Origin: a virus
Length of the DNA stretch: 30,044 bases
Virus record (IMG/VR): IMGVR_UViG_3300002933_000040
Coordinates: 1 to 30,044 of that record
Reading direction: 5' to 3' (one strand)
Positions within the stretch are counted from its first letter, which is position 1. Each line of letters begins with the position of its first letter. Below the pieces are notes generated by a model. That model was not told where the DNA came from. It worked only from the letters and a program-made list of their open reading frames with translations, and did no database searches. Both the position numbers and the translations under genes were made by a program. This document shows positions 10,501-27,367 of this stretch, in pieces.

Positions 10501-13500
10501 GCTTGTTTGTTCAGCAGTGACAGTAATTAGCTTTTGATCTGTGAATCCAGCTACACGATATGCAAGTTGTACATCAAAGTTCTGAAAGTAACTTTCAATT
10601 TTAGTAACAGGATCAATACCAAGATTTTTAATATAATCTGTGATCCAGTTTAAGTAGCCAGATGTTCGTTGTATAGTTCCGGGGACAGTTGTAGTGTCTC
10701 CATTGACCGTTAATAAGTCAGGGGTAATTCTACGGTTAGCATTATCACAGAACTGACCAGTAACTGCATTAATTCTGAAACGACTTAAATCAAGTTGAGC
10801 ACTAAAGTATTCAGCTGGCCGTGCTATTGCTAATGCTTGCTGTATTGCAAATCCATAATCACTACTTCGGCGCCATGCTGTTTCTACCGGGCCTTGATCG
10901 CCTACACGAAAACTATTACCAATTGTTCTTGAATCTATTTGTTTTACAATTCCAGTTTGTGTAGGATCTAATAGATTGCCACTAGAGTCAACAGGAATAA
11001 AGTTAGAAAGTCCTGGGCGAGCAAATCGTAAATCTGTATATGCAGAACTATTGCTTCCGTTCCATATATATCCAGCTTCTAAATCTTGCCATAACGTGCC
11101 ATTGCCGCTGGTATAAGGTGCTTCTCCGTAACGTGTATCCCACCAAGATGGTTTTTCTGAAATACCTACCATCTTCCACGGACTACGATGTGGTTCATCG
11201 GTATCATACCAATAATTGTAAATTGCTCTCCATGACCCTTGTAAAGGGCTACCATCTACGCTATCGGCGATCTGTCCATAGTTCCATGTCCACGGATTAT
11301 TAGCATCAAACCACTTATTAGTTGTGTAATCAACATTGTTACTACCAACCCATTTTAAGAAATTTGTAGTTAATAGTTGATTCCATTCCGACAAACTATA
11401 TCCAGTTGTTCTAAATCGTCCGGGTACTGTATCAACTAAGTTAAATGTGTCCACTTCATTACCAGTTTTAATATTGTTATAGATACGAAGTTCAAGTTCC
11501 AATAGATAGTCGTCACGGAAGTCATTGAAAGCGGGGGTAATACTACCGTCGTGTCCCCGAACAACGTTAATTGGAGTTAAGTATGAATCATCTAAGAACA
11601 TTTCAGGCGGCTGGTCTTGTTGAAGTCCCAGTTTAACTGGAGTTTCTGGAACATAGTTACCATCTGTATTGAAGTAATCGCGAATCATAATTTTGTCGCC
11701 AAATGCTAGCGGAGCACTAATTATAATTTCTGGACTAACTGGGTTAAAAGAAAAATGCACATTGTCGCCAGTTAACTGTACACCATTTAGGTATACTAAA
11801 ACTGCACGGTTACTTAATTTAGTAACATCAAAAATACTACTAATTTCATAATTTTTCTGGCGAGCATTTAATACTGTATAATTAATAGTATTATAGTTTC
11901 CGCCCTGTGGTACCATATCGCTATAGTACCAAGCAAAACTACTATTCTTTACAGAGTTAATAGTTTGTAAAATTGTATCAACTCCCGAGATAGGATCATT
12001 ATAATCTAATCCCTTTAAGGTACTACATAGACTTAAGAATTTATTTTTAAATCTTATATATTCTTCTCTAGCCAGGGTTATACCATTGATAAAGTTAACC
12101 ATTGGATCTGTTAAGAACGTCATTGCATAGATCAACGGACTACTATGTTGTACTAATGTGCCACCTTGCGATTTTACATAACGATCTTGTGGCGGAATAG
12201 GTGTTGTTAAACTAACTGTGGTATTTTCAAGTAACTTACTGTAGTGAGTCCGCAACTGGCCAAGAGTAATAGTTGAGAAATTTTTGTTCAATGCATTGTA
12301 GTCAAGATTTTTAGGAATTTCGTAATACCCTAACGTACTTGTACTATCACTTAGTATCGATACGTCAATTTTGTCGCCTAGTGCAACAGAGACATTTAAT
12401 GTTATAACGTGGTACACACCATATGGTACAAGTTGGTAATCGGTATTAGGATTTAATAGTGCATTATTTAAATAAACTTTAAGGTGTGGTATAGTAGCAG
12501 TATTGCTGGGTAGAACATCAATTTGAACGAACGGATAGTTAATTCCGCCAATATCTAATACAAATCCTTCGTAGAATTTTGTAATAATCTGATATTGGTC
12601 AGATTTCTCTAGACCGGGAATCCAATTAGGTACTCTACTAAATTCTGTTAGGTTAGTATTACGAACAATGTATCCACTGTTACAATTTATTGTACTTGTG
12701 GCGCCAGTATTAGTATCAGTAACATACGTAAATGTATCAGTATCGTAATAATTAGCAAATACAATATCGCCAATGTTATTAAAGTTTTGATATTGTAATG
12801 GAAATCCCAATACTGTATCATTTGTACCTGTAGTAATCACCGGATATCCAAATAATTTGCTACCAGCAAATGTACTGCCTGGGTAGATAGTAGCGTCAGC
12901 AAAGCTAAAGCTGTCTGCATCTAATAGCTCAAATAGTGGTGCTTGTTGGACTGATATTTTTGCTTGACTAGTGTTCCAATTATTGCCATCAAACCAAAAT
13001 GTAATAGCACCATTGGTGTTACCTTGTATAGCTGTTATACTTTCTCCAACAATTACAGGATCATCGGTTGTTTCAAGTAATCTTACAAATACTTGATTAT
13101 TAATAGTTTCAAGATCAACTAACCATACCTCATTTTCAATTGCCATATCATAGTCATTGGCAAACACTACACGCATACCCTGAGTTAATGTTACTCCGTC
13201 GATTGCTTTAGGCGGCACAGTTTGCGGGCCCTCAATTTGAACAAAAGCATCTGTTGAAGTTGTACCATTTCCGTCACTTATTGTGCCATTTCTAGTGGCA
13301 ACAAAAGTAGTACCCACTGTATTCGCAGTAGCACCGAATGTTGTGAAATTAGTAGTTCCTACCGTTACAATAGTATATGTTCCGCCATTGATTATTTGGG
13401 TAGCAGGAAGATTAAAGCAAATAAGATCAATGTTATTTTTGGCTTTTTTACCAAAATTGAATAATTGTAAATCTGCGTCAAACTCAATAATAGCACGACG

Positions 13501-15090
13501 TCCGTAAATATTAGGACCGTAATCAATTAGTGTTTGATTGTATGCGGCTGTAGCTGTTAATACATCCTTATGGAACCAACGATTACTACGGCTCCAAGGA
13601 TTACGGTCTTGACTAGCACGGTTAATAGTAATATAATCGGGGGTAGTTGCAATGTTGGTACTAAAATCCTCGGGTACTATTAATTCAAGGACAGGAACTA
13701 AAGCAATACTAGTACCAACCCCTTCAACATAATATTCACCGTTAGCATAATTACTAGGACTTACTAAACTGTCAAATATAATTTTTAGTCCGTTAGTGAA
13801 AATAACCCCATTTGGGCTAGTATATCCATTCTGACCAATAATATCTGTATCAACATTAATTGGTGTGCTTGTATTATCTACTAATTTTATTTGACCAAGG
13901 AAACCAGGATTACTACTATCCTGGTAGTATAGATAATCAAGTGTGGCTGTAATTGGCGGAACAACAATATATTGAGTGTTAGTATTCACCCAGAATTCAG
14001 TGGATGCATACGTCTTGCCTGATGTAACAAATACTTTTTCGTGAACGCCAACTGCGGTTGTTTCAAGTAATTCAATGGTATAATCTGACCCAATTGGCAC
14101 TAAATTAATTTTCCAAACGCTAGTACGATTGGATACAGGAACTAAAGTACTAGCGTCATTGTTTACTTCCCATTTACTAGCATCTGTTTCGTTGTTTATA
14201 AAGACAATCGTTTTGTTTTGCAATTGATTAGTAATACCATCGATCCCGTCAGGAAAAGCAGTTAAAAACTCACTAAGTAAAACATTTTGAATATCGCTGT
14301 AATTGAAAGTTACCCCAGCAGTCACTGACTGTGCAATTGGCATATTGATATAAAAATCTTGTGCTATTTTTAACGGAACATTAAATTGTATAACTCCGCT
14401 GTCAACCCCATTATTAGCAACACCAAATACATTTCTAGTAGTTAAGTTAGCAATATTTGGATCAACGCCTGTTACCCCTGGTTCGCTTTGAATCCAGAAC
14501 TTGAAACCTGGTTGGTCAACTATAAAGTTATATGTTCCGCCGCGAGTTAATGTTAGTTGTTGATCGGGGTGACTACCCTGGCCGCTAAATGTGTACCCGC
14601 CAACTGCGGTATTTCTTGTTACTGTATAATCTGCCTGAAGCGGAGTATCGCCCGCTGTAACCATTACTGTTGCAGGGCCGTTTGGTAACCAATAATAATT
14701 ATTATAATTTACAAACTTATCATAATCAAAATGTCCGTCAAAATTGTAATATGTTGAAGAAAACAAACGACTATGATCATTTGAGAATCCACGGTTATTA
14801 TCAATACTTTGCAATAAATCAATGTACTCACTATTAAGAACTATATCGCCATTGGTATTTTTAATTACAACACTAGGTTCAAGTTGATAATTTTTTCTTT
14901 GTGCAGTTGATTCGGAAATATAATTATCACCTAATTTATAAGTTGGAGCAAAGGTGCGACCAATGTATCCATTGATAGGTACATTAATTGCATCAGATGT
15001 TAATTGATCTAATGTAGCACCAAGAAATCGTTGGTTGGTTACTGATCTAAAAACGTCGGGTAAAAAATTGAGAGTATTAACTAAAGCCAT
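4570..15090 (-). CDS. Giant baseplate wedge-like structural protein (gp7 position)
   Basis: A single uninterrupted 3,506-residue frame, one third of the window. It directly follows gp6 (the stop and start share one base, TAATG), as gene 7 follows gene 6 in T4, but T4 gp7 is only about 1,030 residues. Visible modules: an N-terminal wedge-type region with LPDVFRSVTNQRFLGATLDQL; a cupredoxin-like beta domain at about 178-256 (LTRGGTYNF...FGVANNGVDSG); a short insert at about 566-610 (GGTYTIVTVGTTNFTTFGAT); a Trp/Tyr carbohydrate-binding-like motif at about 1812-1855 (WQPGVDYKQGDIITFNNSYY); a glycine-rich beta-helix-like pair at about 2871-2932; and two similar modules near 3205-3240 and 3330-3367, each ending in TGNVYG-x-YFANIVS. 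It has no signal peptide and no obvious enzyme motif. It is most likely a baseplate wedge/periphery component. The gp7 link rests on position, not on confirmed similarity. Confidence 0.75.
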   Translation of the reverse strand: MALVNTLNFLPDVFRSVTNQRFLGATLDQLTSDAINVPINGYIGRTFAPTYKLGDNYISESTAQRKNYQLEPSVVIKNTNGDIVLNSEYIDLLQSIDNNRGFSNDHSRLFSSTYYNFDGHFDYDKFVNYNNYYWLPNGPATVMVTAGDTPLQADYTVTRNTAVGGYTFSGQGSHPDQQLTLTRGGTYNFIVDQPGFKFWIQSEPGVTGVDPNIANLTTRNVFGVANNGVDSGVIQFNVPLKIAQDFYINMPIAQSVTAGVTFNYSDIQNVLLSEFLTAFPDGIDGITNQLQNKTIVFINNETDASKWEVNNDASTLVPVSNRTSVWKINLVPIGSDYTIELLETTAVGVHEKVFVTSGKTYASTEFWVNTNTQYIVVPPITATLDYLYYQDSSNPGFLGQIKLVDNTSTPINVDTDIIGQNGYTSPNGVIFTNGLKIIFDSLVSPSNYANGEYYVEGVGTSIALVPVLELIVPEDFSTNIATTPDYITINRASQDRNPWSRSNRWFHKDVLTATAAYNQTLIDYGPNIYGRRAIIEFDADLQLFNFGKKAKNNIDLICFNLPATQIINGGTYTIVTVGTTNFTTFGATANTVGTTFVATRNGTISDGNGTTSTDAFVQIEGPQTVPPKAIDGVTLTQGMRVVFANDYDMAIENEVWLVDLETINNQVFVRLLETTDDPVIVGESITAIQGNTNGAITFWFDGNNWNTSQAKISVQQAPLFELLDADSFSFADATIYPGSTFAGSKLFGYPVITTGTNDTVLGFPLQYQNFNNIGDIVFANYYDTDTFTYVTDTNTGATSTINCNSGYIVRNTNLTEFSRVPNWIPGLEKSDQYQIITKFYEGFVLDIGGINYPFVQIDVLPSNTATIPHLKVYLNNALLNPNTDYQLVPYGVYHVITLNVSVALGDKIDVSILSDSTSTLGYYEIPKNLDYNALNKNFSTITLGQLRTHYSKLLENTTVSLTTPIPPQDRYVKSQGGTLVQHSSPLIYAMTFLTDPMVNFINGITLAREEYIRFKNKFLSLCSTLKGLDYNDPISGVDTILQTINSVKNSSFAWYYSDMVPQGGNYNTINYTVLNARQKNYEISSIFDVTKLSNRAVLVYLNGVQLTGDNVHFSFNPVSPEIIISAPLAFGDKIMIRDYFNTDGNYVPETPVKLGLQQDQPPEMFLDDSYLTPINVVRGHDGSITPAFNDFRDDYLLELELRIYNNIKTGNEVDTFNLVDTVPGRFRTTGYSLSEWNQLLTTNFLKWVGSNNVDYTTNKWFDANNPWTWNYGQIADSVDGSPLQGSWRAIYNYWYDTDEPHRSPWKMVGISEKPSWWDTRYGEAPYTSGNGTLWQDLEAGYIWNGSNSSAYTDLRFARPGLSNFIPVDSSGNLLDPTQTGIVKQIDSRTIGNSFRVGDQGPVETAWRRSSDYGFAIQQALAIARPAEYFSAQLDLSRFRINAVTGQFCDNANRRITPDLLTVNGDTTTVPGTIQRTSGYLNWITDYIKNLGIDPVTKIESYFQNFDVQLAYRVAGFTDQKLITVTAEQTSPGSTNASVIIPDGNYSVYLNKSVPTKTISYSAVIVTKVESGYSVAGYDTTHPYFTILPSIANNNTTPLVVNNITVNLYKTSSQETTVVPYGTTFTSVQQVADFLVSYQRYLISQGFLFNQLDSDLQKTRDWTLSITEFLFWAQQGFNAGVLIVLNPIKDTLDVITKGTIIDAITNLPNGSRLVDTNFNPISNNNFNVLRVDSASGNRFQVTTVNGLSTIAFAKLDLVQFESTLIFDNVDTFGDIIYIPEQGTRQYRLKVTGAKTGLWDGALSATGYIYSDPVISTWQPGVDYKQGDIITFNNSYYTAPNNIIARQTFNPGDWKLISLSDLQTGLLPSFGHNAQIFENIYNIDIPPQDETFQTFSAGLIGFRERPFLSNLGMSVPTQTKFYQGYIHQKGTQNAITSLTKATFDAINSTVGVYEEWAFESGRYGALNTNQYTEFVLDQSIFTTNPVAFTSNTIHTTGNIIVNLNGNASSHFDGNLVSNSDVYNSSNIASTNTSLYNNRITTNYPADLPTCGYVNLADVDYQIFDISKITTVNVVPVLTANTKIWVAKDFTPGWNVYRVNNTGVTATTLTYTLGTTAQLSFNTPHSFIAGSYFILQNFNNNYDGLYQVQSVLNTTSVSINVATTAPLVQAGGSLTGLGTVYGLSTQVVQNNTQIGASTPIGGWIVNDRQWVNNDTASGATGWAVYTYNGSAWVRTRQQSPSVDITSINRTFIYNKSNNVILATLDYIDPAKGKVLNTVGSDIDYQLTQDPALYNNGNLAIQPNLTIRADYHWATQQVGKIWWDLSAVRYINYEQDALIYRLNHWGQTFPGSRIAVYEWVESPVLPSEYIANGGAGVPLYMDDSAYSTSGSVGITGAVNTKYYFWVSNKTTINTAAGKVNSAYSIASAIANPQSQGTPYAMVLRNDTVALFNVNSALTGKNSVIHLGNRSNNAGLIHSEYSLVQEGNAQSQLPSIIERKLIDSLVGQDSAGNPVPDTALTPAQAYGINIRPRQSMFIYRDTALINYLTIVNNKLLTYPVIERKILTTLNSQELAPTIDTGTYNKVVATRTELSYIDTALISIGYNILVTSDITQSGKWSIYTWNGTTWVVSRVQSYKTNLYWTPTDWYVTGYDHTVAPNITVANRLEFGKLSLVANTYIKVLNNGNNQFEVYFIDSNLNQNLIGLQNGTLQISTDTIPPIELRQIATAMQTDIFIDDLRIDFNQIFFTMVKYALSEQKNIEWVFKTSFLSATQYIRSLTQFPSYIADNQSYYLDYINEVKPYRTTVREFIVNYQGNDQFSGDIADFDLPPYWDANLQIYRSPNGDRSYDNSLLSSGVYTQWDSNYKYKVVNAIIEAAGTGYLIAPQIVFKGGGGTGAAGYATLNGSGGIASIIITNPGKNYTSTPTITINGTGTGAVAYPVLRNVFDNNNQGHNVVRSINTTITFDRINYTNPNTFVAWNTITANANLGNVIPANTILSLNNNFYQLANAYIITGFTSNNTVNFPTANVVQISSNFNNANDRIVAFNGNIDLRLTQRGLEYPGVLVDGNTFTGNIYDSIIQSRYTDSLGISPNDIFIDGGQYVDIFESYAPEELIPGRMYDNLNLTVIDTDRLGFRLYEGMNHYYSSYRIAKSNTTVLSSNLNLSDLSISVANAAIMSLPSTIMNVPGVVFINGERITYWRNYALESKTTWAANTIIANNVLITNSGNTYLTTGNVYGTYFANIVSNVQQVSINTLAQIRRATDGTSPQTVHQAGSQVVDASDRHLIPGSANSNVLISTTTVYTSTDVVSLGIILTNNISANIGDIISQVQTVDNWKANTNVSVGSLVYNSGNSYVVTGNVYGAYFANIVSQVTFAFTGNTNTISTMSLLQTVNNANVLPVILTSGNIQGIPVQYDSGNTNGDYGSYDEGGFDNSVGTVHINGTDSGLYLAKSYILGTVSNIGQVTISAGNLLNQSNIWYSPGISSITNGIPLVNSTTVQATFLKASRAV

Positions 15091-18000
15091 TAAAATGTAC
15101 CTATTAGGTTGTTGCCAAGATTAAGCTGAGCTGCTGTTACTGCGCTGATAATATCAATATCATTTACTGTTGCTGCACTAGTAATGATTTCCCACGGTTC
15201 TGCATTAATTTGAAAATAATTACCAAATACTAATGTATCGTCGGCCGGTACTATTAATACACTAGCAATATTAGGCACTAGTGTGGTATGTAAGTACGCA
15301 GCTAATTCACTAAAATAGAATGTATCGCCAAATGACCAATTATTAATATCGAAGTATGCATTGATTGCGTTAATTACTTGTGTTTTAACTTCGTTAGCAG
15401 TTAAACTGACAGAAGGATTTATAACGACTTGGAATCTTGCTTGTAGGCTAGTAGTCGCTTTGGATCCAAATAGTGGTTTGAATTTTGCCGGATTATAAAT
15501 TAGACTATCACTAACCGCTTTATAATTATCTAACGTACTGTAAGCAATTTCTAAACTACTAGAAGTTGGCGGTGTCGGTTCTTTTATCGTGCCTGTTAAG
15601 TCCCTTAACCAATTGATATACGATGTAGCATAATCAGCAGTTAAAATATACAAATCTACAATGTTGATTGGAGTAGGATCTATACGACTACGACTAGGGC
15701 TGTTATGTTTATATTGGAAATATAAACTACTTCTTGAGGTAGCAGTATTAGCTACAGTAGCATAAAGATCTGGGTTATCCGGAACTCCAGTCATTTGAGT
15801 ATCTGGGAATTTTATTAATACTTGAGAAGAATCAACAAACCCATCAGCAGCAGTTATTACGTTGTAAATATTCCATGCTACATCTGTGCCAATCGGAACT
15901 GACGTACTTAGGTAAGGGTTAATTTTTAATATATTAATAGTATCATTAATCGTGGTACCTAATACAGAATTATATACTTTTACACTAGGGTCAAAATAGA
16001 ATTTAGTTTCTGAAGCACTAGAAAATGCATAAGTTAATTTTCTATATTGAATATTATATAATCCAGCGTTGAATGTAAATTTCAACAACCATGTTGTGCT
16101 AGAACCAATATTAGCTGGTAGGATGTTTGCCCATACTTGATTTACCTGATCAAAATATAATCCAAAATTAACTTTAGCAGATATCTGACTGGCAATAGTA
16201 TTAATTAGTGTTGTGCTAAAATCGTTCTTAAATGCTGGAATAATAGATTTTACAATCGCCCCGGTTGGTACAACTGCACCAAAATATGTTTGTGTGTTGC
16301 CAACGACATTAGTAACTGAAGAATAGAATGAAGTTGCATTAGCATTTGTATTTGTTAAGAACTGCACACTTGCTCCAACATCAACATATTTTAAATTGCC
16401 GCTTGCATACGTACTAACATTTATTGCGTTACCATTATAAGTCAAGTTACCGTAGCTACTTGCAGTAGTATTAGCTGTCTGAATAAAAGTAACATTACTA
16501 TGCGTTGGCATATATCTTGGATATATACCGTAATAATAATTAACCATTTCGGTTGATTGCACAACAGGAAGTATATCATTATAAATTGCACTATAGATAT
16601 CGTTAGTTGTCAAAAAGCTAAATGTACTAGAACCAGTGGTATTGTTTGCAGATATAGTACCATCATCACAGAATATATTTGTACTTGAAAAACTTCCGTT
16701 TGGATCTAGTGCGTCAAGGTACGGGCTTACACCAGAACTTGTACGGTTAACAGCTTTAAGTTTTTGTATGCTCGTAAATGTAGTCAACGGAAAGATGTTG
16801 TAATCTTCGCCGGTAATCATACGATTTTGTGTGTAGTATTGTTGTGGTGCAAATGTTTTAATACTTGCTAAACTTTGTGTGGCAGTAGCATTGGTTACTG
16901 TGTATTTTAAACTTGCGGTAACTGTTAATGTTTCTGCATTTCCCGTAGCACTAATGTATTGGAAAGCAATACTCACCGAGGCCAGATCGTCGGGAGTAAT
17001 ACTATAAGATAGTCCGTTGCTAGTTCTATAGTAATATCTAAAGCCGCCTTGCGGTACATTAGAAAAAGATCCATCACCAAATATTAAATTAACCTGATCG
17101 TTGTTGCGAGTAGAGATTTGATATAAATTTTTATCTGCTACTTGGTTATAAATTACGTTTATACCAGCTAATGCAGGAACTGAGTTCCACGCTGTCTGGA
17201 TGCCGCCATTGACATTTAACCCGTATAACCAAGTATCAGTATTATTAATATTATTTGTATTAATTGGTACTACGTTGTTTGGAATAGCATTTTGAATTGT
17301 AAAATTCGTGGCTTGTAAACTGCCTTGTTTAAAATATACAAAGAATCCAGTATTGTTACTACCGTTACCATTATTATCGTTACGGTAAAGAATATTAAAT
17401 TTATTAACCGCAACTGGGGTATTTTCGTATATATAACTTTGTCCTACTGTAGTTGCACTAACCGCTTCAAACTTGACAGGAGTTGACTGAATGGGTACAG
17501 AAAATGCTGCTACCGGAAGTACATTAGTATTAAGAGTTATACTGTATTCGTCTGTTTGAATATTATTAATTAGTTGACTATTAGCAGGTTTGCCAATTAA
17601 TTGGCCTGCATTTAATGTAGCATTTAAAATTGTAGTAAACTGTTCTAACCAATTAGTGTTAGTTAAATCGTTCCAATTGATGGTAGTATTAGCTAAATTT
17701 ATACCATTACTATCTGTAATGTTTTCTGTGGTACTAACGCTGTCAAACTTTAATAAGCCGCTGGCGCTAGTACTACGTGTAGGGTTATAGCTCAACATAC
17801 GAGCTAATTTTAAAATACTATCCCGACGTTGTGCTGTGTCTAGAAAGTTTTCACGTGCGTTTAAATCTGTGCGAAAACTTAAACTTTGCCCTAAGAAAGC
17901 CACCATATCAATTAATGCCAGATATTCGCTGGATTCTAAGAAATCGTTAAACGATTCTGGGTAATATGTTTTTAAATAATTGATCATTGAGTTACGAAGT

Positions 18001-18104
18001 GTTTCAAAATCGTAACTTGTGAAGTCCGCATTAGTAAAGGATTGGTATACTTTAGTCCAATCCTGGTTTACTAGTAAGTTCGTTTGACGTGTTGTTTGTG
18101 CCAT
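15090..18104 (-). CDS. gp6: Baseplate wedge subunit gp6
   Basis: A 1,004-residue protein with the typical gp6/baseplate-J N-terminus: residues about 20-115 contain DFTSYDFETLRNSMINYLK, then PESFNDFLESSEYLALIDM, then LGQSLSFRTDLNARENFLDTA and RRDSILKLARMLSYNPTR. This helical region is the most conserved part of gp6 in T4-like phages, where gp6 dimers form the ring that holds the baseplate wedges together. The C-terminal part (from about residue 850: NPSVSLTANEVKTQVINAIN, INNWSFGDTFYFSELAAYLH, NIASVLIVP) is also typical of this family. It is about half as long again as T4 gp6 (about 660 residues), the additional length being Asn/Thr-rich beta sequence in the middle. It follows gp25, as expected for a wedge cluster, and overlaps the giant gene by one base. 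Confidence 0.92.
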   Translation of the reverse strand: MAQTTRQTNLLVNQDWTKVYQSFTNADFTSYDFETLRNSMINYLKTYYPESFNDFLESSEYLALIDMVAFLGQSLSFRTDLNARENFLDTAQRRDSILKLARMLSYNPTRSTSASGLLKFDSVSTTENITDSNGINLANTTINWNDLTNTNWLEQFTTILNATLNAGQLIGKPANSQLINNIQTDEYSITLNTNVLPVAAFSVPIQSTPVKFEAVSATTVGQSYIYENTPVAVNKFNILYRNDNNGNGSNNTGFFVYFKQGSLQATNFTIQNAIPNNVVPINTNNINNTDTWLYGLNVNGGIQTAWNSVPALAGINVIYNQVADKNLYQISTRNNDQVNLIFGDGSFSNVPQGGFRYYYRTSNGLSYSITPDDLASVSIAFQYISATGNAETLTVTASLKYTVTNATATQSLASIKTFAPQQYYTQNRMITGEDYNIFPLTTFTSIQKLKAVNRTSSGVSPYLDALDPNGSFSSTNIFCDDGTISANNTTGSSTFSFLTTNDIYSAIYNDILPVVQSTEMVNYYYGIYPRYMPTHSNVTFIQTANTTASSYGNLTYNGNAINVSTYASGNLKYVDVGASVQFLTNTNANATSFYSSVTNVVGNTQTYFGAVVPTGAIVKSIIPAFKNDFSTTLINTIASQISAKVNFGLYFDQVNQVWANILPANIGSSTTWLLKFTFNAGLYNIQYRKLTYAFSSASETKFYFDPSVKVYNSVLGTTINDTINILKINPYLSTSVPIGTDVAWNIYNVITAADGFVDSSQVLIKFPDTQMTGVPDNPDLYATVANTATSRSSLYFQYKHNSPSRSRIDPTPINIVDLYILTADYATSYINWLRDLTGTIKEPTPPTSSSLEIAYSTLDNYKAVSDSLIYNPAKFKPLFGSKATTSLQARFQVVINPSVSLTANEVKTQVINAINAYFDINNWSFGDTFYFSELAAYLHTTLVPNIASVLIVPADDTLVFGNYFQINAEPWEIITSAATVNDIDIISAVTAAQLNLGNNLIGTF

Positions 18105-18156: not shown

Positions 18157-18531
18157 TTAATTAGTGGTTAGTGTTGCAGAACTGCGGTTAAAGTTTAAAT
18201 TTAATGTTTCTGTTTGGTCGCTAGGAACATAAGTTAGTGTTATTTGCAATTGAATGCCATTGAGTTCCTCAGTCACTGAGATAGTATTAATAAGCAATCG
18301 AGGATCGTACCCAACAATACGTTTAATATCATTGGTAATAATATCGCGTGTTGTTTCGTTTAATGGCTCAAACATCTGATTCCAGATTATAGTACCAAAA
18401 CTTGGTTGCATTAACTTAGAACCTTTACGGATTTGAAAATAATTTATCAAATCCTGTTTAGCCAATGCATAATCCGTAAGGCTATACTTCTTTTTGTTAA
18501 CCAATGTACTAAATCCGCGATATGTAGTCAT
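18157..18531 (-). CDS. gp25: Baseplate wedge subunit gp25 (GPW/gp25/TssE family)
   Basis: A 124-residue protein of the usual gp25 size (T4 gp25 is 132). The N-terminal half has the family pattern: a helix (YALAKQDLINYFQIRKGSKL), then the loop QPSFGTIIWNQMFEPLN, then the helix TTRDIITNDIKRIVGYDPRL. The conserved E-P-R motif of gp25/TssE, part of the wedge core, appears here as D76-P77-R78. The C-terminal strands (INTISVTEEL, IQLQITLTYV) complete the fold. In contractile tails it forms part of the core bundle with gp6 and helps start the sheath. The ATG at 18531 has no clear Shine-Dalgarno sequence, and an ATAAATA box at 18536-18542 ends only 4 nt before it. It lies between the lysozyme-like gene and gp6. 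Confidence 0.92.
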   Translation of the reverse strand: MTTYRGFSTLVNKKKYSLTDYALAKQDLINYFQIRKGSKLMQPSFGTIIWNQMFEPLNETTRDIITNDIKRIVGYDPRLLINTISVTEELNGIQLQITLTYVPSDQTETLNLNFNRSSATLTTN

Positions 18532-18538
18532 ACTGTAT

Positions 18539-19201
18539 TTATTGACTTAAAACTACAACTGAATAACGACCGCTGTTATAGCTGTTTGTTCCCAACCCTA
18601 TATTATTGTAACGCCATGCCCATGCGCCTGTGCCAGTGGGATTTGCTATAGTAGGACCGGTACCAACTCCTAGTGTCCATGCTACATAGATTAGGCCTGC
18701 TATCGAATCGACAGAATCCGTTGATTGTATAACTCCTATATTTGTACAATTTATGTAAAGGTCAACAATTTGTCTATATGCTAAATGATCTTGCGCCACA
18801 GTATTGGTTAAAAATTCATTTAAGTTAGTCACATTATAGAAATAATTTGCATAATCATTTATACCATTGTTAACATAAACTGGACTCCAGCTATGAATAT
18901 AATTTACACAATCTGTGCTATATGCAGCATTTGACCCTGCGGCCAAAAGACCGTATGTTTCTAGTATTTGTGTGGAAAATTGGTATCTACCCAGTTTATT
19001 ACCAACACCTATTAGAGCATAATTCCATGCACTTAAATCGTACGCAATTTGTCCTTGCAGGTTGCGTAATTGAATAGCAGACATTGGCCCAACAGTTGCC
19101 CACACAGGTGGAGATATAGGGGCATTATTACGACCTAGCCAACTCAGTGGCAATGGAGATATGACCGGTATTCCGGTTGCCGAGATTATTCCTGCATCCA
19201 T
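18539..19201 (-). CDS. Lysozyme-like protein next to spike, catalytic Glu not evident
   Basis: A 220-residue protein whose second half resembles the tail lysozyme/muramidase families found in phage hubs and VgrG-linked enzymes. Matching landmarks in order: LGRYQFST at 70-77 (families have A-L-G-K/R-Y-Q-F), QDHLAYRQIV at 137-146 (family Q-D-x-A), AGLIYVAWTLGVG at 168-180 (family AGLLAAAHL-x-GxGG) and a C-terminal Gly/Asn/Tyr segment ending in NSGRYSV (family D-x-N-G...Y). The active-site Glu usually sits about 15 residues before the G-K/R-Y-Q motif; here the region reads YDLSAWNYALIG, with Asp55 the nearest acidic residue. It starts 3 nt after the gp5-like spike, which itself lacks the lysozyme domain present in T4 gp5. 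It could be a hub cap, a lysozyme with altered chemistry, or a binding-only derivative. The family link is inferred by eye. Confidence 0.6.
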   Translation of the reverse strand: MDAGIISATGIPVISPLPLSWLGRNNAPISPPVWATVGPMSAIQLRNLQGQIAYDLSAWNYALIGVGNKLGRYQFSTQILETYGLLAAGSNAAYSTDCVNYIHSWSPVYVNNGINDYANYFYNVTNLNEFLTNTVAQDHLAYRQIVDLYINCTNIGVIQSTDSVDSIAGLIYVAWTLGVGTGPTIANPTGTGAWAWRYNNIGLGTNSYNSGRYSVVVLSQ

Positions 19202-19204
19202 AAT

Positions 19205-20647
19205 TTATGCCTTGGGCCTCGTTTTACCATCAGATTGTACCCACGGTTCATGAGCGGGCGCTACGGTACATATAGTTTCTAACGCACCTGGATTTATTTC
19301 CCAGGTTGTGCCATTGAATGTTGTATCTTGTAAACTATGCGGAATTGTTGGTATTGGCGGAATCGGAATAGCAGGCGGTCCCGAATTTAATAATAGCATC
19401 GAGCCCGATACACTAGTAACTCCAGTTGACCCTATACTCAATTTTCCGCCTGACGTCAATGATGCCATACCCACAGCACTTAAACTTAATGTTCCCAATG
19501 CTGATAATTTTGCGGTTGATAATGCTGTCATTGCCAATGACCCATTGGTGCTAATTTTTATTCCCGACGAAGCATTTATACTAACAGATTTTCCTTGAAT
19601 ATTTACAGATGAATCGCTATGCAAATTCAATGGGCCTTTGGATCTTACATTAAATCCTTTAGCTCCGTAAATGTTAATTGATCCATCATTACTAAATTCC
19701 ATCCACTGATTACCGGTTGAACTAGCAATGTATAATACCTTTTCTGAATCATTCATTAGAATCTGATGACCGGCTGTTGTACGTAATCTAACCAATTGAT
19801 CAACACCATTATTGTCACCATCGTCCATAACAAAAGTGTGACCTCCTTTACGTCCTTTAACAGCTTGGGTGGCATCGTTACCACCGGCTACCGTGCCGCC
19901 AACTTGCGGATTATTTCCAGTAATAGATCTACCCGGAGTACTAATTCCGTATACATTACTTGGCGATTCGCGCAGACTACTTGAACTAATTGCACCCCGA
20001 ATTTTGTCTCTATCCAACCCCGATGAAACCAATACGGTTGCTTGATATTCATGTACATAACGAGGAGTGGAAGTTAGTCCATCTTGAGTAAATGTTCTGG
20101 CATCTCCTGTGTATGCTTCTACTACCGGAATTGAACTTTTAGTTGTTAATGCAGGCGTCAATTGATCAGGTGGACTGGGAGGTAAAGTTTTACTTGAATC
20201 GCTATTAATATTACGGCCTATAGCAGGAACCATATGATGACTCGGAGTATCGTATACACATGCAAACCAGTAACCTCGATTGCGGTCTCCTGCAACAAAA
20301 GTCACTAATACTTTATTACCCACATCTGGAGGTATAAACCACATACCATAACTCATACCAGTGGACCATTGGGCACCGCTGGCATTTACATCAGTCGTTT
20401 GCTCGTCAGTTCCGTATGTTGTTCCAAAAAATGGACTAGCATAACTAACAGATATCTGATTAGCAGGGTCAGTTTTTACGCCTCCCCAATCTGGAATATA
20501 TACCAGTAACTGCCCAGACCGTGTTCCTTCTACATGCTTTACTATAACTGCTTCATACGGGCCGGGGCTAACCGATACACCGGAATTTTTACCGTCGGCA
20601 TTAGCTGCCGAATCAGCACCCGATTTACGTATTTGACTTGTAGCCAT
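19205..20647 (-). CDS. gp5: Baseplate central spike, gp5-like (OB-fold plus beta-helix, no lysozyme domain)
   Basis: A 480-residue protein. Residues about 30-135 form a gp5/VgrG-type OB-fold: GPYEAVIVKHVE, SGQLLVYIPDWGG, SYASPFFGTTYGTD, GMWFIPPDVGNKVLVTFVAG and GYWFACVYD. A connecting region (about 150-265) follows, then HTFVMDDGD and VRLRTTAGHQILMNDSE leading into a beta-helix of short repeating strands (about 310-425: INIYGAKGFNVRSKGPLNLH, VNIQGKSVSINASSGIKIST). The end AHEPWVQSDGKTR resembles the H-E-P-W tail found on several phage spike proteins. In T4, gp5 carries a lysozyme domain between these two parts; here none is visible, and a lysozyme-like protein is encoded by the next gene. The trimer should form the membrane-piercing needle at the baseplate centre. 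An AGGAAA ribosome site precedes the ATG. Confidence 0.85.
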   Translation of the reverse strand: MATSQIRKSGADSAANADGKNSGVSVSPGPYEAVIVKHVEGTRSGQLLVYIPDWGGVKTDPANQISVSYASPFFGTTYGTDEQTTDVNASGAQWSTGMSYGMWFIPPDVGNKVLVTFVAGDRNRGYWFACVYDTPSHHMVPAIGRNINSDSSKTLPPSPPDQLTPALTTKSSIPVVEAYTGDARTFTQDGLTSTPRYVHEYQATVLVSSGLDRDKIRGAISSSSLRESPSNVYGISTPGRSITGNNPQVGGTVAGGNDATQAVKGRKGGHTFVMDDGDNNGVDQLVRLRTTAGHQILMNDSEKVLYIASSTGNQWMEFSNDGSINIYGAKGFNVRSKGPLNLHSDSSVNIQGKSVSINASSGIKISTNGSLAMTALSTAKLSALGTLSLSAVGMASLTSGGKLSIGSTGVTSVSGSMLLLNSGPPAIPIPPIPTIPHSLQDTTFNGTTWEINPGALETICTVAPAHEPWVQSDGKTRPKA

Positions 20648-20668: not shown

Positions 20669-23194
20669 TTATCTAGTATATACAATCTGTTCGCCAGCAG
20701 AAAGTGTACTTGCTGAATCCGTTGGTACTGCAGAAGTGCCTAATTTAGAATTTGCTTGTCCTGCGACTGTTTGATTAGCAGAATTTAAATTTGTTTGCGT
20801 TGTAGTGGTTGTATCTCTGCCATTGGTAGCATCAGCAGGAGCAGAAGAAGTAATGATATCGCTATTTGATAGACGATATAGATTTAACACCTGAGTAAAT
20901 ACTCCTCCAGAAAACGAATTTTTAATAATAGTAACTCCGTATAGTCCACTGAATAGACTTGGGACTGTTCCCGGTGCGGGAAATACCAATCCTTTATTAG
21001 TCCAATCGGTATCTATATCAATTGGGGTATTAACCTTTAATGAAACAACCAATTCACCACCGTCCATTTTAATCTGTCCATATTTTTTAGCAAGATCAAA
21101 TTGACTAAGGAATTGATTAAAAATATTGTTAGTGGATCTAGGGTTAGGAGTGTACAACCAGTCATCTTGTTTAATTAATGTCGGATCACCGAGTATCGAT
21201 AGTTCCACATTTATCATTTTTGCATCACCAGAGTATATCGATCTCATTACGTTAGCTGCGGTTTGTGATGCTGGATTTTTAATTGTATTAAATCCGATAT
21301 TATCTCGTTGATCGTTAACAATATTTTTATATTTGTTAGGGGTCAAGTTGGGAATTTGATTAAGTCCGGGAATTACATTTAGCGCACCCAATAACTGCGG
21401 ACTTAGCAATAAACTTGTACTAGTCCCAAGAATTGTATCAACCGAAGTACTTGCCGTTGTTTCGGTTGATGCAACCTGGTTAGTATATGAATTCACTGCT
21501 GTATAAAATGTAGTATCAAAATTTATTTTTAAATCGGTAATATCATTGTTTTGACCAGTATACAAATAATTGTATTGTTTAATTATATAAGGTCGTGCAT
21601 CCGATAATGTTGGCGCAGCAGGATGTACTGCGTCATATACGTGATATTGCGATATACTATAATTGAGTTGTTTTGCGTAGACATTTCTAATATTATCAAA
21701 TGCCCCGTTCACTGTGGCGCCGCTGGTGTTAGTCCCAATGTAGCTTACTTGAATGGTTGTTTTATATGTATTAAGAATCTGTGTCAATGAAGTTTGCACT
21801 TCTTTAGAAGCAGTATTTTGCTTATCTAATCCAAGTTGTCCAATTATATAAGAAGACTGTTGTAAGATTCTATTAATTACTTCTTGAATTTGTGTCCCAG
21901 CAGGAATACTAAAATTTCCCTTAGATAAATCAATTTGTTTGCTATTAGGATTAGCTTGCGCTATACTCATTTGTTTATCATATACAATGGTACTAGTAGC
22001 AATATTAGGATCAATTTTAAATGTAATAGAATCAGAATATTCTGTTTTCTTCTCTAACGATTCAAGGCGCCAAAATGCATCTAGCGCATTTGTGAATGCA
22101 TCAAAAAAACCCTGTACAGTACTGGCATTAATTGTTAAATCCTTGGGAACAGTTGAGTACTCCGAACTTCCGCTAGATCCGCCTAGATAAGCTATGTGCC
22201 CCATTGGTACAAAATCAAGTTTATATTCAGCACCTTTGCTAGTTACTTCAATTTTCATTCCAATGATACGAATAGGAAATCTTTTTCTATATATGCTAGT
22301 TTCGCTTGATGGTATTGGGTCGCCCGCATCATCATACCCAGTAAAATCTATCTGTAACATGAATGGTTGCTCAGTGTAATTTTGATACGATCCTGCCATG
22401 CCCGATGCACGAACAAGACTATCAAGAAATGTAACACCATATGGTTCTACGATAGTCATACTACCTGTAATCATATTGCTACTTTTACTTTTTGAATTAA
22501 GACCAACTACCGTTTCAATATTGACATCTTGTATATTGTAGTTTAATCCGACTTGCGTAGGTAAGCGTCGTTGCGGGTAGAGGCCACTATCTTCTGCAAC
22601 CACATAACTTAGTGCGCCCAATTGATAATTTGTACCTGTGCCAATGTCTGCTGTTTCTGCATTCGTTAATCCGTTTAAATCATGCACGTCTAACCACCAC
22701 AAACTAAGTGCATACGTGGAACTAGCGTACTGATGTAATGGATTCGGTATAATATCGGTGGGTACCGGAGAAACAAGACTAGACGAAAGTAAATTATTTT
22801 TTGAGCCAGCCCCGATACCAAATCCATTATCCCCGGTACTATTGCCATTGTTGCTGTTACTATTACCGTTACTATTGCTAATATCGCTACTAGTATTATT
22901 AACATTGTTTGTACCGTTGCTGTTACTACTGCCGTTTGCTACGTCCGAAATCGATGCTGATGCAGTGGATGCACCGGTGTTAGATCCAGATCCAATGGTG
23001 TCAGCCGGTGCGGGAGTAAAGGACACTTCCGTGTCCAACGATGTATCTGTAAATGTTGATGTGGAGTTATCAGCAAAAATTACGGTCACAGTCCCATCAG
23101 GATTAGTTACCTGACTAGTCATCGGATTAGTACTAGTTGGGGGTATATATACTGGAGTTGGGTCGTCTACGTAGGATACTGTTACATCTGCCAT
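20669..23194 (-). CDS. Baseplate hub protein, gp27-like
   Basis: An 841-residue protein. Residues about 65-135 are a low-complexity Ser/Asn/Gly/Thr linker. The region about 230-340 has hub-like sequence (MTIVEPYGVTFLDSLVRA, FMLQIDFTGYDDAGDPIP, YRKRFPIRIIGMKIEVTSK, AEYKLDFVPMGHIAY), and about 640-790 holds a second hub-like part (GDAKMINVELSILGDPTLIK, FSGLYGVTIIKNSFSGGVF, TQVLNLYRLSN). In phage hubs of the gp27/late-control-D type, such I-x-GDP-x-x-I and 'Y-x-V-x-x-V/I-x-x-x-F-x-x-G-x-F-x-Q-x-L' segments come from the ring domains that surround the spike. It lies between gp53 and the gp5-like spike, its expected partner. It is more than twice as long as T4 gp27 (about 390 residues). Assignment rests on motif pattern and position. 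Its ATG at 23194 follows the gp53 stop by 4 nt, with GGATT upstream. Confidence 0.7.
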   Translation of the reverse strand: MADVTVSYVDDPTPVYIPPTSTNPMTSQVTNPDGTVTVIFADNSTSTFTDTSLDTEVSFTPAPADTIGSGSNTGASTASASISDVANGSSNSNGTNNVNNTSSDISNSNGNSNSNNGNSTGDNGFGIGAGSKNNLLSSSLVSPVPTDIIPNPLHQYASSTYALSLWWLDVHDLNGLTNAETADIGTGTNYQLGALSYVVAEDSGLYPQRRLPTQVGLNYNIQDVNIETVVGLNSKSKSSNMITGSMTIVEPYGVTFLDSLVRASGMAGSYQNYTEQPFMLQIDFTGYDDAGDPIPSSETSIYRKRFPIRIIGMKIEVTSKGAEYKLDFVPMGHIAYLGGSSGSSEYSTVPKDLTINASTVQGFFDAFTNALDAFWRLESLEKKTEYSDSITFKIDPNIATSTIVYDKQMSIAQANPNSKQIDLSKGNFSIPAGTQIQEVINRILQQSSYIIGQLGLDKQNTASKEVQTSLTQILNTYKTTIQVSYIGTNTSGATVNGAFDNIRNVYAKQLNYSISQYHVYDAVHPAAPTLSDARPYIIKQYNYLYTGQNNDITDLKINFDTTFYTAVNSYTNQVASTETTASTSVDTILGTSTSLLLSPQLLGALNVIPGLNQIPNLTPNKYKNIVNDQRDNIGFNTIKNPASQTAANVMRSIYSGDAKMINVELSILGDPTLIKQDDWLYTPNPRSTNNIFNQFLSQFDLAKKYGQIKMDGGELVVSLKVNTPIDIDTDWTNKGLVFPAPGTVPSLFSGLYGVTIIKNSFSGGVFTQVLNLYRLSNSDIITSSAPADATNGRDTTTTTQTNLNSANQTVAGQANSKLGTSAVPTDSASTLSAGEQIVYTR

Positions 23195-23198
23195 AATT

Positions 23199-23501
23199 TT
23201 ATAATCCCAATGCTGAATGTACTACTGTTTTAGTAGGGACATAAATGATAGTAGGTGCTATAAAACTAAACACTGGATCTAATAGAATATCCGGATTCCG
23301 CACAGCAAATACCCACCACAGGTTACTATCACCATACATATCATACGCTAATAAATCCGGTCTTCTATTATACGGAGGGTCAATTTGATAACGTGCGTCC
23401 GACACATCAGTTGGTATTGTTATACCTTTCCATATATCAAGGAATTGGCCCCAAAGTGGAGTATTGTGATATGGACTAGACTGTTTATAAATTGCAGACA
23501 T
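23199..23501 (-). CDS. gp53: Baseplate wedge subunit gp53
   Basis: A 100-residue protein with the gp53 hallmark at residues 41-70: DPPYNRRPDLLAYDMYGDSN followed by LWWVFAVRNPD (family: Y-x-x-R-P-D-L-L-A... YG... WWVF-x-x-N). The preceding segment (PLWGQFLDIWKG) is also typical. T4 gp53 is about 196 residues; shorter forms are common in environmental T4-like phages and keep this core. gp53 clamps wedge to hub and bridges adjacent wedges in T4. A strong GGAGGA Shine-Dalgarno sequence lies 7 nt before the ATG, and the ATG overlaps by one base the TAA where the upstream tail-cap frame would end if its 50-bp duplication were removed. The gene ends 4 nt before the hub gene. Confidence 0.88.
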   Translation of the reverse strand: MSAIYKQSSPYHNTPLWGQFLDIWKGITIPTDVSDARYQIDPPYNRRPDLLAYDMYGDSNLWWVFAVRNPDILLDPVFSFIAPTIIYVPTKTVVHSALGL

Positions 23502-24673: not shown

Positions 24674-25573
24674 ATGGCACGCCACAATTATCTAAATAAT
24701 AAAGATATTTTAAAAGAAATACATAAAAGCAAGAATACATATTGCTATTATTCAAGTCCCGAAGTTACAGATTATGATATGATTCTGCCGGACGTTAAAA
24801 AAATCAATAAAAAGAACATAATGCAAGCACGAAAAGATCGTGCTGTCCGTTTAGCTAAAATTGCGTATGATGCTCATCATGCTCAAGAAGGCGCAATTAA
24901 GCGTAAAATGGATGAATTTGAAATCAAGCTCAAAGATATTCCCGATACTGCTGTTGTATTCCGTGTAATGACATGGGATCATATTCCAGTTGATGATGTT
25001 AAATCACGTAAAGCTGCTGTTAAAGCAATGGAGCTCGAAGATGAAGGCCCGGCTAGATCTGAGTACGATGATGACGAATTAGACATTGCCGGTAATACTA
25101 AGTACGTTAAAGTAAACTTTCCACCATTTGAACACTTTCAAGTAACCGAAGAGGGAGACCCTGTGTTAGTAGGACGTAGTCACTGGAAAGGTGATTTAAT
25201 CAAAGGATCATTTAGTCGCGAGCATGGTAAAATGACGCCAAAGTTAGCTCATATGTTTATTAAATTATGCGAACGTTATGCTACCCGTTCCAATTGGCGT
25301 GGTTATACATATAATGACGAAATGCGTAGCCAAGCATTATTACAGTTAAGTCAAATTGGGTTGCAATTTGATGAGTTTAAATCGCAGAATCCATTTGCAT
25401 ACTACACAGCCGCTATCACTAACTCATTTACACGGGTGTTGAATATCGAAAAGCGTAATCAAAATTTACGTGATGATATTTTAGAAATGAATAATTTAAC
25501 CCCGTCCTATACACGCCAGGGACAAAAAATTAGTTCTACAACAGGCGGCAGCGATGGTGGATATGACGATTGA
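24674..25573 (+). CDS. gp55: Late-transcription sigma factor gp55
   Basis: A 299-residue protein. The C-terminal half (about 167-283) carries the highly conserved block of gp55 from environmental T4-like phages: GRSHWKGDLIKGSF, GKMTPKLAHMFIKLCERYAT, RSNWRGYTYNDEMRSQALLQ, LSQIGLQFDEFKSQNPFAYY, TAAITNSFTRVLNIEKRNQN and LRDDILEMNNLTPSYTRQ. The N-terminus (NYLNNKDILKEIHKSK) also fits. T4 gp55 is 185 residues; the extra length is a charged region with an acidic patch (LEDEG...YDDDELD, about 121-138). gp55 directs host RNA polymerase to TATAAATA late promoters, working with the sliding clamp in T4. It is transcribed divergently from the late genes that it should activate. The C-terminus is Gly/Ser-rich. 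Translation is coupled to the next gene through an ATTGA overlap. Confidence 0.9.
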   Translation: MARHNYLNNKDILKEIHKSKNTYCYYSSPEVTDYDMILPDVKKINKKNIMQARKDRAVRLAKIAYDAHHAQEGAIKRKMDEFEIKLKDIPDTAVVFRVMTWDHIPVDDVKSRKAAVKAMELEDEGPARSEYDDDELDIAGNTKYVKVNFPPFEHFQVTEEGDPVLVGRSHWKGDLIKGSFSREHGKMTPKLAHMFIKLCERYATRSNWRGYTYNDEMRSQALLQLSQIGLQFDEFKSQNPFAYYTAAITNSFTRVLNIEKRNQNLRDDILEMNNLTPSYTRQGQKISSTTGGSDGGYDD

Positions 25574-26319
25574 TTGTTTATTCAAACTCATGTAGCTTTG
25601 GTGCACCACAGGGACATACAATTTATCCTGAAGTTGTTGCACAGGAGTTAGCAGCTAAATTAGTAAATGATGGTACTCCGGCTTCGTGCAATCGGCGTAT
25701 AATACGTAGTTCTATTAGATCATTGATTGATATTCGAAAAACTCATAGTGGGCCGTTATTGGCGTTAGTGGGTTTATCGTTTATTAGCAGGACTGAATTA
25801 TGGCAACCACATTTACCCCCAGTCGGCAATGATGGTGATTTTCATCCAATTACTAATGCCGGTATACAGAATCTAGATTGGTCTGGCGGATTAATCAACA
25901 CCCACCGCCCTAATGTTCACGAGTATGCGGATTCCGAAATAAAAGACTATTACAAATACTGGCTATTACACTTTTCTAAAGAAGCAGAAGTCACTAACTT
26001 GATAACCGATGTTATTATGCTTAATTCATTTGCTGAATCAATTAATTCGCAAATTTTAATTTTTTGTAATTGTCAAAAACTCCCATCACTTCCGGAAGTT
26101 GATGTAACTGCACCATTTCTTGCCAACTTTAACGAATATGCTAATACAAAAAATTCAATCATCGATTTATGGAATTTTAGTTTTGCAGACTTTGCATTAA
26201 ACAACGGGCATTTACCAAAAGATCAAGTTAAATATGGATTAACTGGGCACCCGGGCAAAGAAGCACATCGTGAATTTGGGAGATATTTATTGGAAAAAAT
26301 CGCAACAAACCAGCATTGA
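25570..26319 (+). CDS. SGNH-hydrolase-like protein, TTG start
   Basis: A 249-residue protein starting with TTG that overlaps the gp55 stop (ATTGA). An in-frame TGA at 25564-25566 excludes an earlier start, no Met codon follows until about residue 150, and GGTGGA lies just upstream. The N-terminal YSNSCSFG (4-11) resembles block I of SGNH/GDSL hydrolases, with Ser7 or Ser9 as candidate nucleophile. SCNRRIIRSSIRSLID (39-54) holds the Asn/Arg-rich helix typical of phage members, GLSFISRTE (68-76) is a further strand-loop, and GHPGKEAH (226-233) resembles block V with its catalytic His. Substrate is unknown: such enzymes remove acyl groups from sugars or lipids. No signal peptide is seen, so it should act in the cytoplasm or in the virion. 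The position between transcription and recombination genes gives no clear functional hint. Confidence 0.6.
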   Translation: MIVYSNSCSFGAPQGHTIYPEVVAQELAAKLVNDGTPASCNRRIIRSSIRSLIDIRKTHSGPLLALVGLSFISRTELWQPHLPPVGNDGDFHPITNAGIQNLDWSGGLINTHRPNVHEYADSEIKDYYKYWLLHFSKEAEVTNLITDVIMLNSFAESINSQILIFCNCQKLPSLPEVDVTAPFLANFNEYANTKNSIIDLWNFSFADFALNNGHLPKDQVKYGLTGHPGKEAHREFGRYLLEKIATNQH

Positions 26320-26350: not shown

Positions 26351-27367
26351 ATGACTAATCTATTCAAAAAAGCCGCAGTCTTTACAGACATTCACTTTGG
26401 ATTAAAATCAAACAGTACTCTACATAATGACGACTGTTTAAATTTTGTTAAATGGGCCACGGCCAAAGCCCGAGAAGAAGGGTGCGAGACCTGTATCTTT
26501 ACAGGAGACTGGCATAATAATCGTGCTAGTATCAATATCCTCACACTACAATATAGTCTACAAGCACTAGAGCACTTAAATGCAAACTTCGACAATACTT
26601 ACTTCATTCCCGGCAATCATGATCTTTATTATCGCGACAAGCGTGACGTACAGTCTGTGGAATGGGCCAAGCACCTCAGCAATATACACATTTGCAACGA
26701 TTGGACTACTTTCGGGGATGTCACTATTGCTCCGTGGCTAGTTGGTGATGATCACAAGAAACTCAAAAAATTAAAAGGCAAATACTTATTTGGGCATTTT
26801 GAATTGCCCGGGTACTTAATGAATGCTATGGTTGCTATGCCGGACCACGGTGAGATTACCGGAAATGATATGCAAGGGTTCGAGCATGTATATTCTGGAC
26901 ATTTCCATAAACGACAAACTCAACGTAATGTAACTTACTTAGGTAATTGCTTCCCACACAACTATGCCGACGCAGGCGACGACGATCGCGGATTAATGAT
27001 CTTAGAGTGGGACAAGCCACCGGAGTTTCATAGTTGGCCCGATCAGCCCTTATATCGTGTGTTTAGTTTACGGGACGTATTAAACAATACCGAAACAATG
27101 CTTAAACCTAATATGCATGTGCGTGTAAACTTAGATGTAGACATTAGTTACGAAGAAGCCACGTTTATTAAAGAAACATTCATTGAAACATATAAGTTAC
27201 GAGAGATTACACTTATCCCTGCTAAAATTACAGATTTGACAGATTACGAAATACAAGGTAATATTGAATTTGAAAGTGTAGACCAAATTGTTTTCGGACA
27301 ACTAAACAGCATTGAGAGTACACAGTTTAATAAAAATCTTTTGTTAGACATTTATAGAAATCTATGA
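26351..27367 (+). CDS. gp47: Recombination nuclease subunit gp47 (SbcD/Mre11-like)
   Basis: A 338-residue protein, close to T4 gp47 (339). It carries the metallophosphoesterase motifs in order: I, TDIHFG (12-17; D13, H15); II, GDWHNNR (52-58; D53); III, GNHD (88-91); IV, GHFE (148-151); V, SGHFHKRQ (182-189; H184, H186). These bind the two metal ions of the active site. The C-terminal third is the capping/gp46-contact region. With gp46 it forms an ATP-dependent exo/endonuclease that resects ends for recombination-dependent replication and takes part in host DNA breakdown. It appears to have its own promoter and a leaderless start, and its stop overlaps the start of the radical SAM gene (ATGA). 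All catalytic motifs appear intact. Confidence 0.95.
   Translation: MTNLFKKAAVFTDIHFGLKSNSTLHNDDCLNFVKWATAKAREEGCETCIFTGDWHNNRASINILTLQYSLQALEHLNANFDNTYFIPGNHDLYYRDKRDVQSVEWAKHLSNIHICNDWTTFGDVTIAPWLVGDDHKKLKKLKGKYLFGHFELPGYLMNAMVAMPDHGEITGNDMQGFEHVYSGHFHKRQTQRNVTYLGNCFPHNYADAGDDDRGLMILEWDKPPEFHSWPDQPLYRVFSLRDVLNNTETMLKPNMHVRVNLDVDISYEEATFIKETFIETYKLREITLIPAKITDLTDYEIQGNIEFESVDQIVFGQLNSIESTQFNKNLLLDIYRNL

Follow-up and report, generated by a model that had tools for sequence, protein, structure and literature searches.

The gene next to the spike gene in the 30,044-base virus record analysed here (the whole of which we call the window) encodes a 220-aa protein (18539..19201, minus strand) with a predicted lytic-transglycosylase (LT) fold, in which the catalytic Glu of these enzymes is missing. 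We regard this protein, with a probability of about 0.58, as a pseudo-transglycosylase: a component of the baseplate hub that is derived from a tail LT, keeps the glycan groove, and either grips glycan or fills a structural place. In phage T4, gp5 unites an OB fold, a GH24 lysozyme and a beta-helix in a single chain. Spikes without a lysozyme and separate tail enzymes are already known, but a limited search of open-licence papers brought up no hub protein of LT fold that is conserved in a clade and lacks the Glu throughout it.

The window contains a T4-like baseplate block on the minus strand, which comprises the genes of a gp53-like baseplate wedge protein (23199..23501; PHROG 7145), an 841-aa virion protein that is hub-like by position (20669..23194; PHROG 11190), a 480-aa spike (19205..20647), the 220-aa protein, a gp25-like wedge protein (18157..18531; PF04965, PHROG 261/43), a gp6-like wedge protein (15090..18104; PHROG 10646, E 4e-274) and a 3506-aa virion structural protein (4570-15090; PHROG 10938), the last being very large for a gene of the baseplate region. 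The earlier note had claimed that the spike and a lysozyme-like protein are encoded separately, 3 nt apart, and both ORFs (19205-20647 and 18539-19201) are indeed present on the minus strand, with the junction TAA-ATT-ATG between them. The 220-aa gene sits between the spike and gp25 genes in all independent viral contigs that cover the interval except two (L160 and L161), in which the domain is fused to the spike, and this recurrence of the order argues that the arrangement is not due to chance. The stop codon of the spike and the start of the 220-aa gene share a frame in the window (19200-19210). Stop-codon readthrough joining the two products was considered and rejected as a conserved or general mechanism, because the frame is shared in just 7 of 60 distinct relatives. 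Elsewhere in the window, a radical SAM/SPASM protein (27364-28935, plus strand) is encoded near a late sigma factor (24674-25573) and an SbcD-like nuclease (26351-27367), and a 249-aa ORF with a TTG start and without a PHROG match (25570-26319, plus strand) lies between the last two genes.

The spike is of the gp5/VgrG type. The claim that it consists of the OB fold and the beta-helix only is borne out by the profile searches: PF04717 (Phage_base_V) matched the OB fold at aa 84-132 (E 5e-7, above the cut-off), PHROG 13211 covered residues 33-415, PHROG 9992 was also matched, and neither Pfam nor PHROG profiles detected a lysozyme or other enzyme domain in the 480 residues. Among related phages, the spike gene is much longer in L147 (5001-9569) and L150 (430-5004), where the product reaches about 1520 aa and has a long C-terminal part rich in Thr and Ser. 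The spikes of Atu_ph07 (L095:5905-8502) and Phosso (L098:5914-9048) end in a lysozyme-like domain that contains GRYQ/GRYN and in a trypsin-like domain; PF13365 matched the trypsin-like domain in the former, and the latter has a very long Gly-rich linker.

The assignment of the 220-aa protein to the SLT/goose-lysozyme (GH23) fold rests on an AlphaFold2 model (pLDDT 92.3, pTM 0.90) built from an alignment of 34 family members. Compared by VIA-align, the model matched the Cj0843 LT (6cf8) with a Z of 11.4 (rmsd 2.9, 135 aligned residues) and MltE with a Z of 10.2 (152 aligned), and the best 47 rows, with Z of 8-11, were nearly all LTs, goose-type lysozymes and other SLT-like domains. The Glu-bearing domain of L161, modelled separately from an alignment that shares some rows with that of the window protein, gave the same structural matches (Z 11.6). 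The Foldseek matches were weak when taken by themselves (E 0.08 for the best, MltE), with lytic transglycosylases at the top ranks. A Z of about 11 is not in itself proof for a helical protein, and the match of motifs described below is independent support. At the sequence level, the protein matched PHROG 27932 (baseplate hub and tail lysozyme) at E 1.2e-4 and no Pfam family, PF01464 and PF00959 included; among 34 relatives, 4 matched PF01464 when E values as high as 1 were allowed (0.0011 for the best) and none matched Phage_lysozyme (PF00959), and searches of PDB sequences with single and profile queries returned chance matches only.

The earlier note had seen a lysozyme-like gene beside the spike and had proposed to compare its predicted fold with lysozymes. 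The superfamily stands, the model being related to LTs and goose-type lysozymes, whereas the structural matches are of the GH23 type and give no support to the branch of T4 gp5 (GH24). No GH24 chain stood among the Foldseek and VIA-align rows listed, which leaves room for a distant similarity to a GH24/T4-type fold. A GH104 (lambda-type) fold, considered on account of the similar GRYQ-containing domain of the Atu_ph07 and Phosso spikes, was rejected because the motif spacing fits SLT.

All the landmarks reported earlier for the 220-aa protein are found: YDLSAW (54-59), LGRYQF (70-75), QDHLA (137-141) and AGLIYVAWTLGVG (168-180). Loss of the catalytic Glu is likewise upheld, at a place one residue further on than had been thought: gapless alignments and a fixed 15-residue spacing to the Gly of motif II put the catalytic column at codon 56 (19034..19036, minus strand), where Leu stands in place of the Glu, and Asp55 (19037..19039, minus strand) precedes it. 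Alignment by MAFFT with OLIVR5 placed the Glu of RESGGDY over residue 56 without a gap, and the segment IARQESAWNP of E. coli Slt is matched, again without a gap, by IAYDLSAWNY of the window protein. A comparison by hhalign with five E. coli LTs gave a low score (probability 8%, E 0.004) but the same register, gapless over residues 47-80. The distance from the Glu to the Gly of motif II is 15 in Slt, MltE, MltC, MltF, MltD, OLIVR5, ph04, L018, L043 and L078, and it is also 15 from residue 56 to Gly71 in the window protein, whose G71-R-Y-Q74 fits the G-x-x-Q of motif II; in L161, the Glu falls in the same alignment column, with two extra residues ahead of motif II.

The remaining motifs of the site can be placed as well. 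GRYQF (71-75; 18977..18991, minus strand) is by alignment the counterpart of GLMQ in LT motif II, and AGLIYVAW (168-175; 18677..18700, minus strand) would be that of motif III, judging from its position in the fold and the alignment with the fused L161. The GRY at 211-213 (18563..18571, minus strand) contains Tyr213, which does not vary within the clade, is also present in L161, and is proposed to correspond to the tyrosine by which LTs hold the catalytic Glu in position. The conserved N-terminal extension (residues 1-40; 19082..19201, minus strand) resembles the linker between spike and LT domain in L161 and is possibly a docking segment. Asp55 had been taken as the sole acidic candidate, and this did not hold: Glu81 (18959..18961, minus strand) is invariant in the 220-aa clade, and Asp/Glu138, Asp147 and Asp162 are also invariant or nearly so.

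We surveyed 69 distinct domains covering both positions 55 and 56. Glu is absent from column 56 in 62 of them; an acid is present at position 55 in 53 (Asp in 52, Glu in 1), Glu56 in 7, neither in 9 and both in none. Three of the seven Glu56 bearers lie outside the clade (L160, L163 and L164) and four within it. The mutual exclusion of Asp55 and Glu56 is significant when relatedness is left uncorrected (Fisher test, p 1e-5), and the treekit independent-pair test had few pairs. No Glu-bearing relative and none of the E. coli LTs has an acidic residue just ahead of the Glu, so that Asp55 is seemingly tolerated only once the Glu has gone. Position 55 is Asp, Asn, Ser or Thr in 65 of the 69 domains, and this residue, near the end of helix 42-57, would suit a helix-capping role more than that of a catalytic acid.

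Absence of both acids has arisen repeatedly. On a tree of 65 clade sequences, the state without an acid at 55/56 takes 6 changes, of which at least 5 are forced by supported branches, and 6 changes are also found in bootstrap trees; the Glu56 state takes 3 changes on the same tree. Each of the nine acid-free proteins covers 34-38 of the positions that are near-invariant in the Asp55 group, and nevertheless 32-37 of these are kept, among them Ser57, Trp59, Gly71, Tyr73, Gln74, Trp196 and Tyr213. The dN/dS ratio is 0.05 between the acid-free L141 and its Asp55 relatives and 0.19 within the acid-free pair L147/L150; over the measurable pairs it is mostly about 0.05-0.2, with several dS values near saturation and near-identical pairs uninformative. 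The 220-aa family is thus under purifying selection, acid-free lineages included. The acid-free N55/A56 protein is present in L147 and L150, the same phages that have the spike of about 1520 aa; L028 has S55/Q56.

A residue essential for catalysis should not vanish five or six times from a site that is otherwise maintained, which is why we favour a pseudoenzyme. The earlier note had offered a fold kept for structure or sugar binding as one of its readings, and this fits best, because the acid-free lineages remain constrained. Binding without cutting is physically reasonable, as there are crystal structures of Glu-less LT mutants in complex with ligands (chitopentaose on MltE-E64Q, 4hjy; bulgecin on Slt E503Q, 6fcq). 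For the 220-aa protein, we infer both glycan binding and the stoichiometry in the hub. The ancestor would have been a tail LT of SLT/goose-lysozyme fold, whose descendant is encoded separately, by a gene adjoining that of the spike, and is not part of the spike chain. With the catalytic Glu lost (Leu56), peptidoglycan cleavage is most likely gone, while the cleft would have been kept and the conserved N-terminal segment may dock the protein onto the baseplate. Once the spike enters the periplasm, the protein probably grips glycan strands, or else it occupies a structural place in the hub.

Some of the data speak against a pseudoenzyme. Most relatives retain Asp55, and none combines it with Glu56, which could mean that the acid was exchanged; the invariant Glu81 is left without an explanation; and the large contigs other than L041, which are partial and were searched with limited models, showed no alternative tail enzyme. 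The distribution of acids (53/69 at position 55, 7/69 as Glu56, never both), together with the retention of the other active-site motifs and the moved catalytic residues known in other 'pseudoenzymes' (PMC10211241), would suit a migrated acid, with Asp55 reaching the scissile bond in a working, perhaps slow or pH-shifted, transglycosylase. We consider this rather unlikely: a shift by one residue in helix 42-57 would rotate the side chain by about 100 degrees, Asn, Ser or Thr can stand in for Asp at 55, and 9 of the 69 relatives lack an acid at that position, a state reached by no fewer than 5 supported changes, and are still constrained. That the acid was exchanged between Glu56 and Asp55 across one clade, with some lineages becoming fully non-catalytic while keeping the glycan cleft, seems unlikely to us.

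Purely structural hub subunits, with motifs maintained for folding and subunit contacts and no carbohydrate binding, would account for a gene that is always beside those of the spike and gp25, for the conserved N-terminal extension and for the strong constraint; that the places lining the LT groove (motif II Gln, motif III aromatic, motif IV Tyr) are among the best kept makes this quite improbable. An active enzyme whose catalytic acid is a different conserved residue, chiefly Glu81 or Asp147, is very improbable. Glu81 is found in all 65 clade sequences covering that position, with Val or Ile in its place in L160/L161, L163 and L164, and both acids, which hardly or never vary within the clade, are missing from the Glu-bearing relatives that lie outside it. 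However, the four clade members that have Glu56 retain Glu81 too, so that Glu81 did not arise simply as a replacement for that residue, and by alignment it falls in the helix after motif II, which is not known to be a catalytic place in LTs.

The peptidoglycan enzymes of phage tails are commonly regarded as necessary for DNA entry. As to which virion protein cuts, a search of the partial contigs of 14 relatives for other peptidoglycan enzymes, limited to the SLT, Phage_lysozyme and M23 models (the genome of the window phage being incomplete), found only a domain in the hub-like gene of L041. This gene (L041:815-4459, plus strand), which adjoins the spike, encodes a 1215-aa homologue of the 841-aa protein of the window with an N-terminal SLT-like domain that bears a Glu (VWGVESGYKTH; the match, at E 1e-4, falls short of the Pfam cut-off), and L041 thus carries a pseudo-LT with D55 next to a Glu-bearing LT-like domain. 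Related spikes elsewhere carry M23 and GH24, or GH104-like and trypsin-like, domains. In P1, the spike is without a lysozyme and an SLT domain is present in the tape measure protein (PMC9024508).

The window resembles T4 in its operon context (gp53, hub, gp5, gp25, gp6), in the type of spike and in a lysozyme-superfamily domain tied to it, and differs from T4 gp5 in the separate gene, the SLT/goose-type fold match and the lack of a catalytic Glu. The hubs of L160/L161, OLIVR5 and Atu_ph04 have a homologous LT domain at the same place (28.6% identity for OLIVR5, 33% for L161), but in a single chain and with the Glu intact (FSESRFNY, RESGGDY, RESSGNY); L161 has an M15/VanY-like tail in addition. 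These Glu-bearing fused relatives (L161, OLIVR5, ph04) link the 220-aa protein to tail lysozymes. MltE, Slt70, Cj0843 and phiKZ gp144 share with it the fold and the ES-x-W/F-N/D, G-x-x-Q and, as proposed, terminal Tyr motifs at equal spacing, and, unlike it, retain the catalytic Glu. The jumbo phages Atu_ph07, Phosso, RaK2, Vibrio phage 2.275.O and PA5oct have a homologous OB/beta-helix spike, which differs in ending in GH104-like and trypsin-like or in M23 and GH24 domains, with none in PA5oct. P1 gp5 is similarly an enzyme-free spike with the LT supplied by another virion protein, but there the enzyme is part of the tape measure protein and no pseudoenzyme is reported (PMC9024508). Strong selection on fold and cleft in this clade of large myoviruses, with the catalytic residue repeatedly dropped, suggests a role for the module beyond cutting, and close relatives that have Glu56, Asp55 or neither of the two provide a natural set for separating gripping from cutting without engineered proteins.

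About a hundred viral contigs, with lengths reaching 374 kb, proved to encode the 220-aa protein when scanned, and a separate scan with patterns of 84,980 bacterial and archaeal species, one genome each, found no relatives; the large tailed phages that carry this family are known from environmental DNA alone. Good matches to named phages were confined to the hubs of Agrobacterium/Rhizobium phages (OLIVR5, E 3e-6), in which the domain lies inside the hub chain. Both split and fused arrangements occur: spike, LT domain and VanY-like tail form one 934-aa chain in L160/L161, L163/L164 encode the LT domain in a gene of its own (429 aa), and a 742-aa OB-fold protein in BFVD contains the LT domain. 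The L161 chain (4911-7715, plus strand) runs from OB fold and beta-helix through an LT domain with intact Glu to the VanY/M15-like tail (GQHGRGLAIDLQ). In L044 (5995-7182) and L066 (1348-2649), the 220-aa protein is lengthened to 395 and 433 aa, respectively, by C-terminal tails without a clear Pfam match.
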